The notes beneath the pieces were generated by a model. It was not told the DNA's origin. It saw only the letters and a program-made list of their open reading frames with translations, and ran no database searches. Source: Gemmatimonadota bacterium (GTDB taxonomy: Bacteria > Gemmatimonadota > Gemmatimonadetes > Longimicrobiales > Longimicrobiaceae). Taken from it: a DNA stretch of 10,402 bases. The first letter of the stretch is position 1; each line of letters starts with the position of its first letter. Location: positions 1-10,402 of the forward strand of contig JAHWJJ010000113.1 in NCBI GenBank assembly GCA_019348475.1, read 5' to 3'. A program made the translations under genes and the position numbers. Shown here piece by piece: positions 1,807-10,230 of the stretch.

Positions 1807-4800
1807 CTACGGACAGGTGACCTCGCCCGTCTCCGCGTTGACGGTGCACGAGTCGCTGCTGCTGCTGCTGACCCCGTCGAAGAGGTAGCCCGGCCCCACG
1901 CGGAAGATGCCCCACATCCCGCCGTCGAAGTGGTGCGACGTCTGGTCGCGGAACAGGTAATCGCCCTCGATGCCGAACCGCCCCCCCGCGCTGGGAAGCA
2001 GCACGTCGAAGTGGTTGGTGGGCCCATGGCCGATGGTGGTGCCCTTCCACTCCGAGAGCGGGTTCCATCCCAGGCGCGTGGAGCCGTCCAGGTACGGAAG
2101 CTCCGGCCACACGTGGCCGTGCAGGTTGAACACCGAGTTCCGCGCGTGCCCGCCCGGCGCCACCACCCGGAACCGCACCTGCTCCCCCGCCATGGCGGTG
2201 AACACGGGCGTCTGCGGGTCGCCCCCCACCTGCCCGTTGAGCAGCGACTTGGTGAAGACGAAGCCGCGGGTGGTGCTGAGCGACGTCTCGGGCGAGTACC
2301 CCATCCTGAACCACAGCGGCTCCGTGCGGTAGTTGAAGGCCTTGTTCCCCGAGTCCTCGGCGTCCTCGATCCCCGCCAGGTGCGGCAGCGCCGAGCCGGA
2401 GGCGTAGTAGTGCGCCTCGCCGTGGTCGCCCGGCAGCGTGGCGTCGCTGCCGAAGCGGAGGTTGACGTCCGTCTGGAAGAAGAGCACGTGCTCGCGGAAG
2501 GTTTCCATCACGTGCACGCACGCTTCGTCGGGCGGGCAGTAGGGGGAGTACTGGATGTCGGCCGAGACGCCCGCCAGGTTGTCCCACGTCGCGCCGTCGG
2601 GCTCCACCACCAGCGCCCCGATGGCTCCCTTCGCCGCCTGCTTCAGCGGGTCGGCCGGCATCAGGTTCACCACCCCGAACTCCACCGGGCGCGAGGCGAT
2701 GGTGTCGGCCACCAGCGTGTGCGTGCCGGCGTACCACTGGTACTTGCGCATGCCGCCCGGCCCCACCGTCTGGATGGGGTTGCCGCCCACGTTGGTGCCG
2801 TCCGACCGCGTGACGTCGTACGCCAGCAGCTGCGCGTGCAGCCCCACCTGGTTGCTGACCCGGATGTGGTTGTTGTTGAACTGGTCCACGATCATGGGCA
2901 GGGTGTTGAACCCGGCCAGGTCGGGCATCACGTCCGGAAGGTGGTTGTACAGCACCACCTGGATGCACTCGCCCGCGTTCGCGCGCAGCACCAGCGGCTC
3001 CGGCGGCCGCGCGCCCGACCGCACCGCGTCCATCAGGTCGTTGCGCACGTACAGGATGGCCGTGGGGTCGTGCAGCGGCCCCCCGTTCACCGGGCGCGCG
3101 TTGTACACCAGCGTCCCCGAGGGGAGAAGGTCGCGCGCCAGGATGGCCGTGACGTCGTAGCTGCGCACCGGCGCCGCGCGGGGGCACACGCCGTTGAAGT
3201 CCCCCGTGTTACGGGGGAGGATGTTCCCCCCAAGGTTGTTGGGAAGCTGCAGCAGGTTGGCGTACCCCTTCCCTCGCTGCGACACGCGCAGCAGCCCCCA
3301 CACCCCGTTCCACAGGTCGTCGGTGGCGCTGCCGGCGCGGTACAGGTAGTCCATCTCCGGCCCCACGGCGTTGCGGGGAAGGGGCGGCAGCAGGAACTCG
3401 TAGTGCTCGCTGATCCCCATCATCTGGCTGTTGCGCCAGCCGCTGGCCGCGTCCGCCGGCTCCATGTTCCAGAAGTTGCCGTGGATGCTGAAGTTGTGCC
3501 CCTCCTCGTGCGCGCCCACCAGCACGCGCACCTGCACCTTGTCGCCCTCGTACCCCCACATCAGCGGGGTGTAGGGGTCCTGCAGGTTCACCCCCGGGCG
3601 GCGGACGTGCTCGTCGTACGGCCCCCACTGCATGGTGAAGGGGTTGTCCAGGCCGGTGACGAAGGCGTCGGCCAGGTCCTCGTGCTGGGTGGTGGTCCCG
3701 GCGCCGATGCGCAGCGCCAGGGGCTCGTTGCGATAGTTCACCACCATGGTTCCCACGTCGTCGGCCGAGATCAGCTCCGGGCACGGCGCCGGCGTGCCGT
3801 TGGGGCACGCGCCCGCCACCGGCGGGCGCAGCAGGTCAGGCAGCCCCACCTCGAACTTGCCGGCGGGGTTCACCGCCGCCCCGGGGTTGGGCCCCAGCGC
3901 ACCGATCGGCTGGCCGCGCGTGTAGGCCAGGGTGAAGTCCGCCAGCTGCAGGTTGAACTCGCGGTAGCTGTCCGCGCGGTTGGCGGTCAGGATATCGGCC
4001 TTCCAGCTGGTGGGCCCGCCGTCCGTGCGGGTGCCGAACTGGGCGCCGGTGTGCATGTCGCGCCAGACCGACCCCGCCGGCTCCGTCACCAGCCCCGCGT
4101 ACAGGCCGGCCTGCTGGTGCGTGCTGGGGCCGAAGTGGTCGTGCGTGAAGACGGTGCGCAGGGTGCGGTCGCGGCCGGTGGCGTCGCGGACGTCGTCCAC
4201 GTACCAGCGCTGCACCGTCTCCTGCGCGCCCAGCCAGTCGCCCACGCCGTCCCCGTTGTTGTCGGGCCCGTGGCCGAAGAAGGGGTGCGCCACGGCGTGC
4301 GGGCAGGTGGGGCTGACCGGGTCGGCGGCGGTGCAGCCGTTGTAGACGCGGATGGCGTGGATGCGCTCGCGCACCTCGTCGGGCGAGAGCGAGCCGTCCT
4401 CGTAGTTGAAGCCGTTGGCCGCGCCGTCCGAGGAGGTGACGTCGAACTTGACCAGGTGGATGTGCTGCCCGATCACGTCGGTGGGCGTGCGCACCTGGAA
4501 GTCGTCCATCTGGTACTCGAACGGGATCAGGTTCACCAGGTTGTAGGTGATGCAGTCGTTGGTGTTGGCGCGAAAGTACAGCGGCTCCGGCGCGCGGTCG
4601 CCGCTCAGGAAGGCCCTGACGTCTTCCCACAGCGCGAACATGCGGTGCTGGGGAAAGTGCCATCCGGCCTTGTTGTAGCGCACGTCGGTCTGAAACGCGG
4701 CGCTAAGGTACTGCCGCGCGACGCCCGCCGGGTTCCCGTGGTCGTCCACGCAGGGGTCTGCGAACGGAGCGCCGGCCACCGGCCCCAGCCCGTTGGTGGT

Positions 4801-6759
4801 GAACCCCGCCGCCGAAACGGCGTAGCTCACGGGGTCGAAGCGGTAGGTGGCGTGGGTGCGCTGGGCGTGGAACCGCATCGCCCGCTCCTCGGCCGGCGTT
4901 CCCGTGTGCGGAAGGTTCACCACCCCCAGCCTGACGCTCTCCTTGCTGAAGTCGGTGGTGTTGAGGGCGGGAAAGTGCGCCTCGCCGTCCACCACCACGT
5001 GCCGGGGCAGCCCGCCGTCGTGCACGTGGTCCAGCGGCGGCGGGGGAGCCCGGCGGCCGGCCACGCCGGGGATGTAGAAGGGAAACCCCGCCATCCCCTC
5101 GTCGGGCATGGGCGCCAGTGCGTAGGTGGGAAGCGGCACCACGGCCGGGATCGGCGTGCCCGCCTCGATCTCGCCGTCGGGAAGGGCGCGCGCCCCCGGG
5201 GCGGGGCGCCCGTGCTCGTCCAGCACCGTCCCCGCCTCGAACACGTCGTGCACCCGCCACAGCGCCCACATCCCCTGCCCGAAGTGCGGGTAGAAGTGGC
5301 AGTGGAAGATGGCGTCGCCCGGCGTCTTGTTGCGGTTGCTGCCGCCATCGTAGGTGATCTCGTACGTAAAGCCGCCGCCCGGCCCGATCGCCTGGCTGTC
5401 CAGGTAGGTGGAACTGTCCGAGTCGGGCGAGTGCAGCCACTGGTGGGCGTGCAGGTGGAAGATGTGGTGCTCCTTGGGCCCCGCGTGAAGGTTGCGGATC
5501 TTCACGTGGTCGTTCATGTAGCTGTGGTACACGTTGGACGGGTCGTCCGGGTACAGCGCCAGGGTGGCCTTGCGCCCCGGGTCCGGGCGGCCGTCGCCGT
5601 CGCGGTCGGCGTCGGCGGGAACGTCCACCACCATGGACGGATCGCCCACGGCCCACGAGCTCAGAAAGAACTCCTCGTACTTGCACTCGTCGCAGTCCCA
5701 CATGGGCCCCACGCCCAGGCGGTTGCCGATGACCTCGCTTCCCAGCCCCGCGGTGCCGTAGTTGATGGCGAAGGCGTCGCGCCCGCTGTGCAGGGTGTGC
5801 TCGAACTCCCTGCTCTCGTACAGCGAGTCGAACGCCTGCACCAGCCCCGGCTCGTCGTGAAAGATGACGGTGTACTCGCGGAACGGCTGCGTGCGGTCGC
5901 GGTTCACCACCACGCGGGGAAAGACGCCGTCGCGAAAGTGCCCGCGGCTTTCTCCCGAGATAATGGCGGTGAGGTCCGAGTGCACGATGCGGTTGCCCGC
6001 CGTCATCCGCAGGATGGGACGGCCGGCGAGGGCGTGCCCCGGGGGGTAGACGGCGTCGTAGTCCACCACCGGGTGCCCGGCCGGGGTGTAGAGCGGGTGT
6101 CCCGAGGCGTCCGTGCGGGTGGCCAGGCGCAGGTCCTCGGCCGTCACCTGGCTGCGGTACCACTCGCTGTGGGGCGGCTCCACGTTCACCGCTCCGAACA
6201 GCCCCTTGGACAGGGTGCCGCCGTCGCCGTCGCCGCCGGTGTTCTGGGCGGTGCTGTACAGCAGGTAGGTGCCCTCCTTCTCTGCGTAGATCGTGTAGCT
6301 GGCCTGCCCCACGCCCACCGAGTTGCCCACGTTGGTGCCGTCGTCGCCGATGTGCGCGGCCACCTGCATCCCGGTGACGTGGATGCTCACGTCGCGGGTG
6401 CCGGGCTGGTTGCTGCCCGGAGTGTGCGAAAGGCGGTTCTGCAGGTGGACGCGCAGGCAGTCGCCCTCGCGGACGCGCAGCACCAGCGGGCGCGGGCGCT
6501 TGCCCGGGCGCAGCCGGTAACCGCCTGCGTGCGAGTCGTAGACCACGTCCTCGTCCAGCGCGAACATCATGGCGGCGGGGTCGTGGGCGCCCAGCCGGTT
6601 GTACCAGATCGGCTGGTCGATGGCCGAAACGTAGGCTTCGGTGACGTTGCAGGTCTGCGCGGCGGCCGGTGCGGCGGAGAGCAGGGCTCCCACCAGCAGG
6701 CCCAGGGCGCCGGCGGCGCGGCCGGGCGGGCCGGACCGCCTTCTGGCGTGTGACGGCAT
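1807..6759 (-). CDS. Giant six-domain multicopper oxidase, MofA/MnxG-like (candidate Mn(II) oxidase)
   Basis: A 1650-residue exported oxidase expected to couple substrate oxidation at a type-1 copper to O2 reduction at a trinuclear cluster. Signal peptide: Arg-rich start, hydrophobic 15-30, likely cleavage after Ala34 (AAA|QTC). I read six cupredoxin domains as three pairs: odd domains end in G-x-x-G/A-x-x-x-x-EP (about 186, 885, 1378), even ones in G-[MV]-W-x-[LI]-x-RV (496, 1152, 1614). Copper ligands: motif C H432-x2-H435-x-H437; motif D H486-C487-H488-x3-H492 with axial M497; motif A H766-I-H768; motif B H873-D-H875, then Q/AGL. All ten His plus Cys and Met are present, in order C-D-A-B. 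Domains 1, 4, 5 and 6 have decayed or partial sites. Asp-rich loops at 383-393 and 833-841 resemble EF-hand/dockerin calcium loops; a CDEC lies near 355. Size is close to MofA of Leptothrix (about 1660 aa, from memory) and larger than Bacillus MnxG. Start: ATG with AGGAG 5 nt upstream. The oxidase class is firm; manganese as substrate is inference. Confidence 0.88.
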   Translation of the reverse strand: MPSHARRRSGPPGRAAGALGLLVGALLSAAPAAAQTCNVTEAYVSAIDQPIWYNRLGAHDPAAMMFALDEDVVYDSHAGGYRLRPGKRPRPLVLRVREGDCLRVHLQNRLSHTPGSNQPGTRDVSIHVTGMQVAAHIGDDGTNVGNSVGVGQASYTIYAEKEGTYLLYSTAQNTGGDGDGGTLSKGLFGAVNVEPPHSEWYRSQVTAEDLRLATRTDASGHPLYTPAGHPVVDYDAVYPPGHALAGRPILRMTAGNRIVHSDLTAIISGESRGHFRDGVFPRVVVNRDRTQPFREYTVIFHDEPGLVQAFDSLYESREFEHTLHSGRDAFAINYGTAGLGSEVIGNRLGVGPMWDCDECKYEEFFLSSWAVGDPSMVVDVPADADRDGDGRPDPGRKATLALYPDDPSNVYHSYMNDHVKIRNLHAGPKEHHIFHLHAHQWLHSPDSDSSTYLDSQAIGPGGGFTYEITYDGGSNRNKTPGDAIFHCHFYPHFGQGMWALWRVHDVFEAGTVLDEHGRPAPGARALPDGEIEAGTPIPAVVPLPTYALAPMPDEGMAGFPFYIPGVAGRRAPPPPLDHVHDGGLPRHVVVDGEAHFPALNTTDFSKESVRLGVVNLPHTGTPAEERAMRFHAQRTHATYRFDPVSYAVSAAGFTTNGLGPVAGAPFADPCVDDHGNPAGVARQYLSAAFQTDVRYNKAGWHFPQHRMFALWEDVRAFLSGDRAPEPLYFRANTNDCITYNLVNLIPFEYQMDDFQVRTPTDVIGQHIHLVKFDVTSSDGAANGFNYEDGSLSPDEVRERIHAIRVYNGCTAADPVSPTCPHAVAHPFFGHGPDNNGDGVGDWLGAQETVQRWYVDDVRDATGRDRTLRTVFTHDHFGPSTHQQAGLYAGLVTEPAGSVWRDMHTGAQFGTRTDGGPTSWKADILTANRADSYREFNLQLADFTLAYTRGQPIGALGPNPGAAVNPAGKFEVGLPDLLRPPVAGACPNGTPAPCPELISADDVGTMVVNYRNEPLALRIGAGTTTQHEDLADAFVTGLDNPFTMQWGPYDEHVRRPGVNLQDPYTPLMWGYEGDKVQVRVLVGAHEEGHNFSIHGNFWNMEPADAASGWRNSQMMGISEHYEFLLPPLPRNAVGPEMDYLYRAGSATDDLWNGVWGLLRVSQRGKGYANLLQLPNNLGGNILPRNTGDFNGVCPRAAPVRSYDVTAILARDLLPSGTLVYNARPVNGGPLHDPTAILYVRNDLMDAVRSGARPPEPLVLRANAGECIQVVLYNHLPDVMPDLAGFNTLPMIVDQFNNNHIRVSNQVGLHAQLLAYDVTRSDGTNVGGNPIQTVGPGGMRKYQWYAGTHTLVADTIASRPVEFGVVNLMPADPLKQAAKGAIGALVVEPDGATWDNLAGVSADIQYSPYCPPDEACVHVMETFREHVLFFQTDVNLRFGSDATLPGDHGEAHYYASGSALPHLAGIEDAEDSGNKAFNYRTEPLWFRMGYSPETSLSTTRGFVFTKSLLNGQVGGDPQTPVFTAMAGEQVRFRVVAPGGHARNSVFNLHGHVWPELPYLDGSTRLGWNPLSEWKGTTIGHGPTNHFDVLLPSAGGRFGIEGDYLFRDQTSHHFDGGMWGIFRVGPGYLFDGVSSSSSDSCTVNAETGEVTCP

Positions 6760-7001: not shown

Positions 7002-7097
7002 TCCGCGAAGCTAAACACTGGCGCATCTTGCCATGCCCGCCGCGTCGCGAACGGCTTTCGCCGCCTGGGCCTGAGCCGAATACAAAAAATGCCGGCA

Positions 7098-7310
7098 GTG
7101 CTGGAGGGATGAGGGTGCGACGGCCGGAGGCGGACCGGATGGGATCGGCAGGATGCCGGCGTCCCCTGGTAAAGAGGATGCTGCCGGCGAGGGGACGGGA
7201 TCCGAATTTTTCGGGATGGGCAGGGATCGAGGTGGCGCGGCGGGGAGCGGCCGGGGCACATGGATCCACCCGATTGCCATCCGTACAAGCCCGCCCCGGC
7301 TGGACGCTGG
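7098..7310 (+). repeat. Dispersed ~200-bp repeat, copy B
   Basis: This is similar along its length to copy C downstream and, inverted, to copy A. It starts in GTGCTGGAGGGATGAGGG and ends in CCGCCCCGGCTGGACGCTGG. The end nearest the oxidase matches copy A further out than copy C does (GGGTGCGACGGCCGGAGG and the bases before it), so copies A and B share a longer boundary. Together with copy C it fills most of the gene-free stretch 6760-7612; the remainder is the oxidase leader with its dyad pair and a short 3' hairpin beyond the sigma-54 activator. No convincing gene is seen in this stretch. Confidence 0.85.
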
Positions 7311-7320
7311 CCGATTGACA

Positions 7321-7365
7321 ATGGAGTGGAGGGAGTGATGGAGTGGTGGAGGGATGGAGTGATGG
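7321..7365. repeat. GGAGTGATGG-type low-complexity tract between repeat copies B and C
   Basis: A purine-rich run of GGAGTGGA/GGAGTGATGG-like units, the reverse complement in character of the tract at 1586-1614. It directly abuts copy C. Confidence 0.65.
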
Positions 7366-7552
7366 CGGCCGGAGGCGGACCGGATGGCATCGGCAGGGTG
7401 CCGGCGTCCCTTGGCAAAGAGGATGCTGCTGGCGAGGGGACGGGATCCGCATTTTTGGAGGGGCAGGGATCGAGGTGTCGCGGCGGAGGGCCGCGGGGGC
7501 ACATCATCCACCCGATCGCGATCCGTAAAAGGCCGCCCCGGCTGGACGCTGG
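7366..7552 (+). repeat. Dispersed ~200-bp repeat, copy C
   Basis: A direct repeat of copy B and inverted to copy A. Identical landmarks with B include GGAGGCGGACCGGATGG at the left and CCGCCCCGGCTGGACGCTGG at the right end (7533-7552). Its centre has a shorter T-run (ATTTTTGG) than the complement of copy A (six Ts), one of several frame-breaking indels. CGCGGCGGAGGGCCGCG (about 7479-7495) gives a GCGGC/GCCGC-type hairpin at the place where copy A has CGGCGG/CCGCCG, a hint of conserved structure. Confidence 0.85.
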
Positions 7553-7612: not shown

Positions 7613-8623
7613 TCAGCCGATGCGGCGGAGCTTCTGGCGCAGGGTGTTGCGGTGGATGCCCAGGATCTCGGCGGCGTGGCCGAGGTTGCCGTCCGTGAGC
7701 GAGAGCGCGCGGCGGATATGGCGCTCCTCCACCTCGCGCAGGGAAAGGAAGGGGCCGTCCGCGGCGTGGGGGGCGTCGGGGCGCGCGGGCCCGGCGTCGC
7801 CGCGCACCTCGGGCGCCAGGTGTTCGGGAAGCAGGGTGTCGCCGTCCTGCACCAGCAGCGCGCGCTGGATGACGTTGCGCAGCTGGCGGACGTTGCCGGG
7901 CCACGCGTACGCGCGCAGAAACCCGAGCGTGGCATCGGCGATCAGCGGCACGGGGCGCCCCAGCTCGCCCGCGTACTCGCTGGCGAAGTGGCGCGCCAGC
8001 AGCTCCACGTCGTTCCCCCGCTCGCGCAGCGCGGGCAGGTGCACGGTGACCACGGCCAGGCGGTAGTACAGGTCCTCGCGAAACCGCCCCGCCAGCACCT
8101 CCGCCAGCAGGTCGCGGTTGGTGGCGGCCACCACCCGCACGTCCACCTGCACGGGAACGTCGCCGCCCACGCGTTCGATCTCGTTCTCCTGCAGGGCGCG
8201 CAGGATCTTGGCCTGCATGGCGGGGCTCATGTCGCCCACCTCGTCCAGGAAGAGCGTTCCCCCGCTGGCCCGCTCGAAGCGCCCCACCCGCCGCGCCACC
8301 GCGCCGGTAAAGGCGCCGCGCTCGTGCCCGAACAGCTCCGTCTCCAGCAGCGTCTCGGTGATGGCGGCGCAGTTGACGGCGACGAACGGACCCCCGGCGC
8401 GCAGCCCCTGGTCGTGGATGATGCGGGCCAGCAGCTCCTTTCCCGTGCCGCTCTCCCCCTGCACCAGCACGCCGGCCAGGCTGGGCGCCACGCGCCGGGC
8501 CACGGAGAGCGCGCCCATCATCCCCACGCTGCTCCCCACCAGCGGCGTGCGCGCCCGGGCGGGGGCGCCTCGGGACCGCGCGACGGCGGTGTACGTGTGC
8601 GTCTGGCCGGCCGGCTTGAGCAT
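7613..8623 (-). CDS. Sigma-54-dependent transcriptional activator (NtrC family) without receiver domain
   Basis: An enhancer-binding protein that would remodel RNA polymerase-sigma-54 by ATP hydrolysis. Numbered from the ATG at 8623 (336 aa): residues 28-260 are the AAA+ domain, with VGSS at its start, Walker A GESGTGKE (56-63), an intact sigma-54 contact loop GAFTGA (103-108), Walker B TLFLDE (123-128), the arginine-containing FREDLYYRL (181-189) and WPGNVRQL (241-248). Residues 311-336 are a Fis-type helix-turn-helix ([22 protein letters not shown] region). The N-terminal 27 residues hold no receiver, GAF or PAS domain, so it is PspF-like in layout and must be controlled by a partner, by its own amount, or not at all. 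An in-frame GTG at 8629 adds two residues; I prefer the ATG because AGG lies 5 nt before it. It starts about 34 bp after gspK and is probably cotranscribed with it. The family is certain; its target promoters are unknown. Confidence 0.93.
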
Positions 8624-8657
8624 CTGCACCTGTCGTGGTCTGTCGCTGCGGGACCGC

Positions 8658-9578
8658 TTACCGTTCCACCACGTTCACCAGCACGTACTTTCCCGCCCCG
8701 CCCATGGCCGCCACGGCGCGGATGCGCGCCCGCACCGGCGACCCCTCGGGCGCCGCCTCCGCCACCAGCTCCGCCTGCGCGGGGCTGAAGGCCACCGCGG
8801 CCAGGAACGCCGCCATCTCCCCCGCCAGGCGGCTGCGCTCGTGCCGCGGCAGCGCGGCGGAGACCTCGTACGGGCTCAGGAACGGCGCCGTGGCGCGCCG
8901 GCGCGCCACGGCCTCCGCCGCGTCCGGGCCGATCCCGGGCAGGGTGCGCAGCACGGGGACGGGGGCGGAGTTCAGGTTGATGCGCCCGTCGCTGGCCACC
9001 GTGAGGTACGGCGCCGCCCGCGCGTACTCGGCGAACCCGATCCCCGGCACCTCGCGCAGCGCCTGGACCGAGGCGAAGGCGCCGCGCGGAGGCAGGCGCA
9101 GGGTCTGCGCGGAGTCCGCCGCCGCGGGGACGAAGGCCGGCGCGTGCGCCAGCCGCCAGCGGACGATCGCCGCCGCCATCTCCCGCGCCCGCTCCGGCGC
9201 GATCCCCGCCGCGGCGAACACCTCCCGCAGCGCGCCCTCGCCGGCCAGGTTCAGCTGCACCCGGGCGCGGGCGTCGGTGACTCGCGCGGTCACGGCGACC
9301 TCCTCCAGGCGGGCGGCCAGCGCCGGCGCCAGCAGGGTGTCCGCGGCGGGCGCGGCCCCGGTGGCGCTCTGGGCCGCCAGTTTGGCGCGCAGCGCGTCCT
9401 CCGCCCTGGCCAGCCCACCGCGCGCCGCCCACTTCGCCCGGGCCGATGCGCGGGCGTTGGCGGCGGCGCGCTGGTCCGCGCGCACGCCGGCGTGCACCTC
9501 CAGCGCGAGCGCGGAGCCCAGCACGATCACCCAGAGCACCGCCACCAGGACGAAGCCGCGCCGGTCACAGAGGCGCAT
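8658..9578 (-). CDS. gspK: Type II secretion minor pseudopilin GspK
   Basis: This would be part of the pseudopilus-tip complex (GspK with GspI and GspJ) that helps push folded substrates through the outer-membrane secretin. The 306 residues begin with a class III signal, [16 protein letters not shown], with cleavage by the prepilin peptidase after Gly8. The fifth mature residue is Ala, not the usual Glu, which is the known peculiarity of GspK. The hydrophobic helix is followed by a long soluble domain with VQLNLAG (107-113), the GspK-typical [18 protein letters not shown] (200-217) and a helix-hairpin-helix-like repeat also seen at [12 protein letters not shown] (175-186). Length is near the family norm. 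The gene overlaps the 3' end of gspJ by 14 bp and has AAGGA 6 nt before its ATG, which implies translational coupling. The usual gspL/gspM do not follow; a sigma-54 activator does. Confidence 0.9.
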
Positions 9579-10230
9579 CGCCGATCCTTTCCGGGCGCAT
9601 GGGCGCGGGGCGCAGGGGGACGGCGACTGGCAGCCGCAGCGCGTCGGGGAGCCCGTCCCCCGCCGGATCGTTCGCCCGTTCCGGCGCGGGAAGGACGACC
9701 AGCTCCAGCGCTTCGGGAAGCGTCCGCTCCGAGTCCCAGGCGTCCAGCCACGCGTCCTTCCTGCGCACCTTTGCGCGGTAGCGCACGTCCAGCCCCACGG
9801 CGGCGGGGGCCAGGGACAGCGTGTCCGTGCGCTCCCCGTCGCGCCGCTCCGCCGGGGCGATCTCCGCCAGCAGGCCGTGCGGCTGGCGCGTGCGGTCCCG
9901 CTCGATCCACAGCGTCAGCCGGTGGCGTCCGGGGTAGAGCGCCCCGCCGTCGTCCACCGTAAAGCTCAGCTCGTCCACGGAGAGCGGGCCGATGCGGCGG
10001 TCGCGGCCGCGGAAGGGTCCGGAGCCCTCCCACAGGGAGGCGGCGCGCAGCCATCCGTCCAGCGCGCCCCGCACGGCCGGGCCCGGGATGCGCTCCGCGC
10101 GGTCGCGCGCCACCGCCGCGCGCCCGTCCGCGACCCCGGCCAGCACCCCGTATCCCGCCGCCGCCACGACGCCGCCCACCACCAGCGCGACGACGACCTC
10201 GACCAGGGTGAAGCCGGCGCGGCGGATCAT
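9565..10230 (-). CDS. gspJ: Type II secretion minor pseudopilin GspJ
   Basis: This 221-residue pseudopilin is expected to sit at the pseudopilus tip beside GspK and GspI. It has a textbook class III signal, RRAG|FTLVEVVVALVVGG, with Gly at -1, Phe at +1 and Glu at +5, followed by a hydrophobic helix to about residue 31. The soluble domain contains LDVRYRAKV, then a spaced Trp pair (WLDAWDSERTLPEALEL), a pattern seen in GspJ proteins, and a mostly beta-type C-terminus. The ATG at 10230 has GGAG about 10 nt upstream, a rather long spacing. Its stop lies inside gspK. Upstream is a hairpin-repeat stretch rather than an adjoining pseudopilin gene, so this operon part may be separated from gspG/H/I. 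Confidence is high for a pseudopilin, somewhat lower for J rather than I. Confidence 0.85.
   Translation of the reverse strand: MIRRAGFTLVEVVVALVVGGVVAAAGYGVLAGVADGRAAVARDRAERIPGPAVRGALDGWLRAASLWEGSGPFRGRDRRIGPLSVDELSFTVDDGGALYPGRHRLTLWIERDRTRQPHGLLAEIAPAERRDGERTDTLSLAPAAVGLDVRYRAKVRRKDAWLDAWDSERTLPEALELVVLPAPERANDPAGDGLPDALRLPVAVPLRPAPMRPERIGDAPL

Follow-up and report, generated by a model that had tools for sequence, protein, structure and literature searches.

A giant six-domain MnxG-like multicopper oxidase downstream of type II secretion genes in Longimicrobiaceae

What could a giant multicopper oxidase do in a member of the Longimicrobiaceae, and by which route would it leave the cell? 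Known enzymes that make manganese oxide come from few cultured bacteria, and the Longimicrobiaceae belong to the phylum Gemmatimonadota. The question arises from a Gemmatimonadota contig of 10,402 nucleotides (JAHWJJ010000113.1, assembly GCA_019348475.1), called the window here and analyzed over its full length. We read its largest gene as coding for a secreted six-domain oxidase of the MnxG superfamily, probably exported by type II secretion, controlled by a sigma-54 activator and working through one active centre, with Mn(II) as the likeliest electron donor; to this reading we give a probability of roughly 55%. The oxidase gene and its copper-binding motifs are as follows.

1807..6759, minus strand: giant six-domain multicopper oxidase, MnxG-like (open reading frame, Pfam and NCBIfam scans, protein search, alignment A1)
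5440..5466, minus strand: motif C region, residues 432-440, domain 2, with type 1 ligand H432, type 2 ligand H435 and type 3 ligand H437 (alignment)
5269..5304, minus strand: motif D, residues 486-497, domain 2, with H486, C487, H488, H492 and M497 (alignment)
4456..4464, minus strand: motif A, residues 766-768, domain 3, with H766 and H768 (alignment)
4135..4143, minus strand: motif B, residues 873-875, domain 3, with H873 and H875 (alignment)

The gene starts with ATG at 6759, stops at 1807 and codes for 1650 amino acids; an earlier note on this DNA had given no strand. An open frame of 1654 amino acids on the plus strand covers the same bases, and because the family matches fall on the minus strand we regard it as an antisense shadow cast by the GC-rich oxidase gene. 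The Pfam and NCBIfam scans took six open reading frames, five of which were taken as shadow or spurious frames. Only two Pfam families reached E<=1 in the oxidase, both of them Cu-oxidase: Cu-oxidase_3 scored 24.1, over its cut-off of 21, and Cu-oxidase_2 scored 16.1, under its cut-off of 20.4. The full set of type 1 and trinuclear ligands in motifs A-D, which marks the multicopper oxidase superfamily, is present. The protein search returned at least 4375 homologues at E<=1e-10 (7994 candidates scored), the best Longimicrobium-named record being 84% identical. A FastTree tree with Priestia as root, branch supports not inspected, places the oxidase among copies of its own bacterial family. Residues 1 to about 35, judged by eye, resemble a signal peptide.

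How firm is the assignment of the copper ligands? All twelve that the earlier note had named (H432/H435/H437, H486/C487/H488/H492/M497, H766/H768 and H873/H875) were found exactly in place, and HCH occurs once in the protein. They are invariant in the 93 aligned family members, the window copy included, and for this reason cannot be put down to chance. They are likewise kept in all 30 rows of alignment A1 and in each of the 120 protein-search matches listed, the window's own among them, which were gathered by shared 5-residue words. The 93 rows comprise the window, eight copies from the same family, 82 copies from 80 named loci, one Priestia copy and one Indioceanicola plasmid copy. They were obtained from 97 large frames by leaving out seven (the window fragments L003, L004 and L007, the copy L008, the partial L017 and L068_22171, and the antisense frame L083_2890) and adding the window, L100 and L101. 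The 80 named loci were found by the pattern HCHFYPH or GQHIHLVK, so this set leans towards those motifs; only HCH-bearing frames were then kept, with no named locus lost. By a simple pattern alone two rows seemed to lack motif A and one motif C; in the alignment these columns are filled. Scanning genome contigs with alignment A1 gave at least 542 matches, of which the best 80 were kept, and the same scan with the single oxidase protein as query found no relative. Outside the ligand set, a CxxC pair (C356/C359, residues 356-359, window 5683-5694) is kept in 92 of the 93 members, Priestia MnxG among them, and E362 immediately behind it in all 93; the pair perhaps serves as a disulphide or in copper handling.

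The domain architecture accounts for the order of the motifs. Residues 36-555, 660-1170 and 1190-1630 match each other pairwise, with best local matches from 4e-12 to 8e-7. Each of these repeat units is two domains, and the chain consists of three tandem two-domain cupredoxin units. Ligands are kept in two domains only, the second of unit 1 (motifs C and D) and the first of unit 2 (motifs A and B); in the other domains they are lost or have left traces, such as H1547/H1549. The seeming rearrangement to C-D-A-B arises because the retained centre bridges two units, with one part in the second half of unit 1 and the other in the first half of unit 2. The placement of C-D in domain 2 and A-B in domain 3, proposed earlier, is borne out by the conservation across the family and by the alignment with MnxG, in which H492 falls on the mutated position 340 of PDB 9bxa. 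The earlier note had also mentioned a rearranged order for MnxG, and this is in print (PMC3600357, PMC3618234). We therefore dropped the order as a novelty: every one of the 93 members shares it, and C-D-A-B is the normal order of the MnxG family, already known biology. According to PMC3618234, MnxG has the motifs in reversed order and MofA has them in the ordinary one; for MnxG the order is thus no news, and a comparison with MofA becomes doubtful. The observation made earlier stands, and its interpretation is supported in part, being right for the most part.

Which enzyme does this architecture recall? Chain-long homology to MnxG, a type 1 site in domain 2 and a trinuclear site with ligands of both domain 2 and domain 3 define the six-domain MnxG-like class as we took it from PMC3600357, and all of these are seen in the oxidase. 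The only strong relative of the whole protein in the PDB is the manganese oxidase MnxG; taken by itself, the C-terminal half finds two-domain laccases as well (3.5e-6 and 5e-6). The score with the MnxG equivalog model NF041487 is 1352.2 bits against a cut-off of 3100, and the Pseudomonas putida protein of locus L080, taken as control, scores 3892.8 bits. By its sequence, then, the oxidase is classed in the MnxG-like six-domain family and is not an MnxG equivalog.

The ligands, the family, the match of the modelled fold, the gene order and the co-occurrence described below come from the sequence analysis itself; copper content, signal peptide, export, regulation and substrate are inferred, and for these a working scheme may be proposed. 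Of the three cupredoxin units, one active centre would be retained, probably with four coppers. The type 1 copper in domain 2 (H432, C487, H492, axial M497) would accept electrons from an extracellular donor, and the trinuclear centre between domains 2 and 3 (H435, H437, H486 and H488 together with H766, H768, H873 and H875) would reduce O2 to water. The enzyme would be made under the control of the sigma-54 activator, brought into the periplasm by its putative signal peptide and passed out of the cell by the type II secretion system encoded just upstream. Mn(II), the most likely donor, would end as manganese oxide outside the cell.

The genes on which the export and control steps depend lie upstream of the oxidase in the window.

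7613..8629, minus strand: sigma-54 activator with AAA+ and Fis-type helix-turn-helix domains, upstream of the oxidase (Pfam; same place in relatives)
8658..9578, minus strand: gspK, type II secretion minor pseudopilin (NF037980 82.3 bits, below the cut-off of 130)
9565..10230, minus strand: gspJ-like minor pseudopilin (prepilin motif; TIGR01711 22.2 bits, below the cut-off of 64.85)

The Pfam matches of the activator include no receiver domain. The genes gspJ and gspK overlap by 14 bases, the contig ends past gspJ, and gspK matches a Longimicrobium-named record with 79% identity in the protein search. In relatives the order runs beta-propeller, gspE, gspG, gspF, an open reading frame, gspD, gspH, gspI, gspJ, gspK, activator, oxidase; L110 and L109 display it in full, from propeller to oxidases. 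The frame between gspF and gspD occupies the usual place of gspL and has no NCBIfam match. NCBI models match gspD, gspE and gspF clearly, and gspH, gspI, gspJ and gspK weakly. In the window's own genome a matching propeller followed by gspE lies on another contig. Three further contigs (15645, 9829 and 115640 bases) appear to carry gspK and the oxidase, paired only by equal size.

Do these secretion genes serve the oxidase at all? They might export other proteins, their adjacency being inherited by chance. A gap of 853 bases with dispersed repeats parts the oxidase from the activator, one genome (G007) has the secretion genes without an oxidase, and in G001 and G018 all oxidase copies found lie on contigs other than those of the secretion genes. 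However, the oxidase comes next after the activator in all five contigs that run well past the activator (window, L103, L109/L110, L111, L112), and in G001 and G018 the contig (two loci, L119 and L132) ends soon after it. Type II secretion-type genes also occur in the flanks of 29 of the 82 other loci, namely in 21/21 Pseudomonas loci against 8/61 others, although matches of gspE or gspF type may instead belong to pili and the flanks covered up to 10 kb, often less. We consider a chance association unlikely and prefer export of the oxidase by this system.

Other features of the window may be mentioned here. A dispersed intergenic repeat of about 115-245 bases lies on both sides of the oxidase (7097-7552 and 1293-1500), with at least 84 matching stretches in the window's own genome (40 of 230 candidates scored). 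Positions 1-633 hold the end of a plus-strand gene that converges on the oxidase; it has a Peptidase_S74 chaperone domain and matches a YadA head weakly, like a surface or tail-fibre protein. A small plus-strand frame at 781-1224 is lipoprotein-like in its later part, judged by eye.

How are the parts of the locus distributed? Long oxidase matches were found in seven of 41 genomes (G000, G001, G003, G006, G008, G014, G018), G019 having only short distant ones. A close propeller (at least 619 bits; next best 66) is present in exactly these seven, and the window-type gspK (at least 189 bits; next best 102) in the seven and in G007, where the secretion genes stand with neither oxidase nor close propeller in the genome and no activator beside them. 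By Fisher's exact test the joint occurrence of oxidase and propeller gave 4e-8 over the 41 genomes and 0.008 within the genus, uncorrected for relatedness. Of the 82 other loci, outside this bacterial family, 71 have a propeller, 63 a SCO protein and 54 a cytochrome-binding-protein fusion nearby; 20 of the 21 Pseudomonas loci, all but L068, have propeller, SCO, cytochrome-binding-protein and PPIase neighbours besides the secretion-type genes. Five relatives of about 2200-2640 amino acids (P0078, P0080, P0086, P0100, P0115) join a Tol-type beta-propeller and the oxidase in one chain according to precomputed Pfam matches, an echo of the separate propeller gene that neighbours the oxidase. A His/Met-rich, copper-binding propeller head, striking in L110, was dropped as a general feature, since 1 of 74 propellers reached 10 His plus Met per 40 residues and the median was 3. 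Oxidase copies are also multiplied. G001 has five separate gene places, and at L107 12853-13158 (G001:C285) the last ~105 residues of one paralogue match in a different open frame. G003 has three giant genes in tandem after the activator (L109, G003:C91:1-20000), L068 (Pseudomonas jinjuensis) three in a row, of which the last is truncated where the locus stops, and L054 (Methylobacter luteus) a pair.

What speaks against the main reading? The distance from proven manganese oxidases is the first point: identity over aligned positions is ~49% to Pseudomonas MnxG and 40% to Priestia MnxG, too distant to carry the substrate over, and the equivalog cut-off is missed. The oxidase is patchy, in 5 of 10 genomes of the genus. 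On a Priestia megaterium plasmid (L100 3297-7624) an mnxG-type gene has two small open reading frames directly upstream, presumably where mnxE and mnxF would be expected; with these two as query and no positive control, MnxE/F-like proteins were not found in the window's own genome, which is 76.55% complete. The cytochrome-periplasmic-binding partner, queried with that of L025, matched in 0 of 21 same-family genomes, with 2 weak matches among the 41; the Pseudomonas version of the query finds the partner in the 54 other loci counted above. All secretion proteins of the oxidase cluster score below NCBI equivalog cut-offs. Finally, the MofA homologue OmpB has a role in iron-oxide reduction (PMC5566968), and no sigma-54 consensus lies upstream of the oxidase on its strand: the window holds 3 matches, all on the plus strand, where 4.4 are expected. 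A second sigma-54 pattern gave no match in the gap between oxidase and activator, and we dropped a sigma-54 promoter for the oxidase.

The secreted six-domain oxidase might instead take its electrons from Fe(II), Cu(I), phenols or humic matter and oxidise Mn(II) as a side substrate at best. Multicopper oxidases are broad in substrate, the equivalog score falls short, and the five gene places of G001 and the tandem of G003 may mean different substrates. Moreover, Sphaerotilus carries Mn-oxidase-type genes and is understood not to oxidise manganese (PMC13386937). This is possible, yet we hold it rather unlikely: the sole strong whole-protein relative in the PDB is a manganese oxidase, the laccase matches of the C-terminal half notwithstanding, and the acidic residues E362, D417, D454, D482 and D505, which may bear on the donor, are among those kept in 93/93 members including Priestia MnxG.

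Much less probable is a protein like Geobacter OmpB, which at the outer surface would bind metal oxides or pass electrons to them with no use of O2. A Geobacter metagenome-assembled genome does contain a family member (L042), with identity 0.525 on aligned positions. Nevertheless, none of the eight trinuclear ligands is missing, which hints at oxygen reduction; no fibronectin type III domain was found in the oxidase (Pfam, E<=1), while OmpB has one; and 21 genomes of the bacterial family yielded no cytochrome-binding-protein partner. The functions of OmpB and MofA themselves need verification (PMC5566968).

With Mn(II) kept as the preferred donor, we tentatively suggest, at less than even odds, that some Longimicrobiaceae possess an independent module for oxidising metal outside the cell, mostly acquired or lost whole, and that an entire bacterial lineage thereby forms manganese oxide through a secretion route of its own. 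The module would consist of the beta-propeller, core type II secretion genes, the sigma-54 activator and between one and three consecutive giant oxidases of the MnxG-like kind. What is new and useful here is the link of the locus with secretion genes, together with the patchy and at times tandem occurrence of oxidase copies in this family. If the oxidases do act on manganese, the Longimicrobiaceae join the makers of manganese oxides, which drive carbon and metal cycles (PMC11930936). Through the conserved secretion genes the export route becomes open to test; they also provide a genetic marker, and G007 offers a natural comparison. In open-access literature we found nothing linking Longimicrobium with manganese and multicopper oxidase, which does not show the locus to be unpublished, and nothing joining type II secretion, mnxG and manganese; for type II secretion and manganese in Pseudomonas putida GB-1 nothing was on topic, judging from the listing. 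The passages of PMC10367259 name no Gemmatimonadota mnxG.

How does the locus compare with known systems? The oxidase matches MnxG of Bacillus sp. PL-12 (PDB 9bxa, Mnx H340A complex; 1227 amino acids against 1650) along all its length and shares its ligand set and C-D-A-B order; a model of domains 1-3 predicts the same fold. Manganese oxidation in P. putida needs type II secretion. Pseudomonas MnxG (NF041487; L080, P. putida 700447; 1977 amino acids) has the same ligands and order and likewise type II secretion-type genes nearby, but its SCO, cytochrome-binding-protein and PPIase neighbours are all absent from the window. P. putida MnxG is described as the main manganese oxidase of its strain, with a predicted sigma-54 promoter (PMC11930936), and Bacillus MnxG as acting together with MnxE/MnxF (PMC5622069). 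MofA of Leptothrix, 1661 amino acids, is similar in size, but its reported order is A-B...C-D (PMC3618234), which sets it apart by description and not by alignment; no MofC-like cytochrome c with a periplasmic binding domain lies beside the gene in the window or in same-family loci. With MofA and OmpB the oxidase has the secretion theme in common; Geobacter OmpB, compared by description, differs in its fibronectin III domain and its role in Fe(III) oxide reduction (PMC5566968). Ceruloplasmin and algal Fox1 have six cupredoxin domains, as does the oxidase, and in algal Fox1-type proteins the trinuclear site also lies between domains 2 and 3 (PMC3600357).
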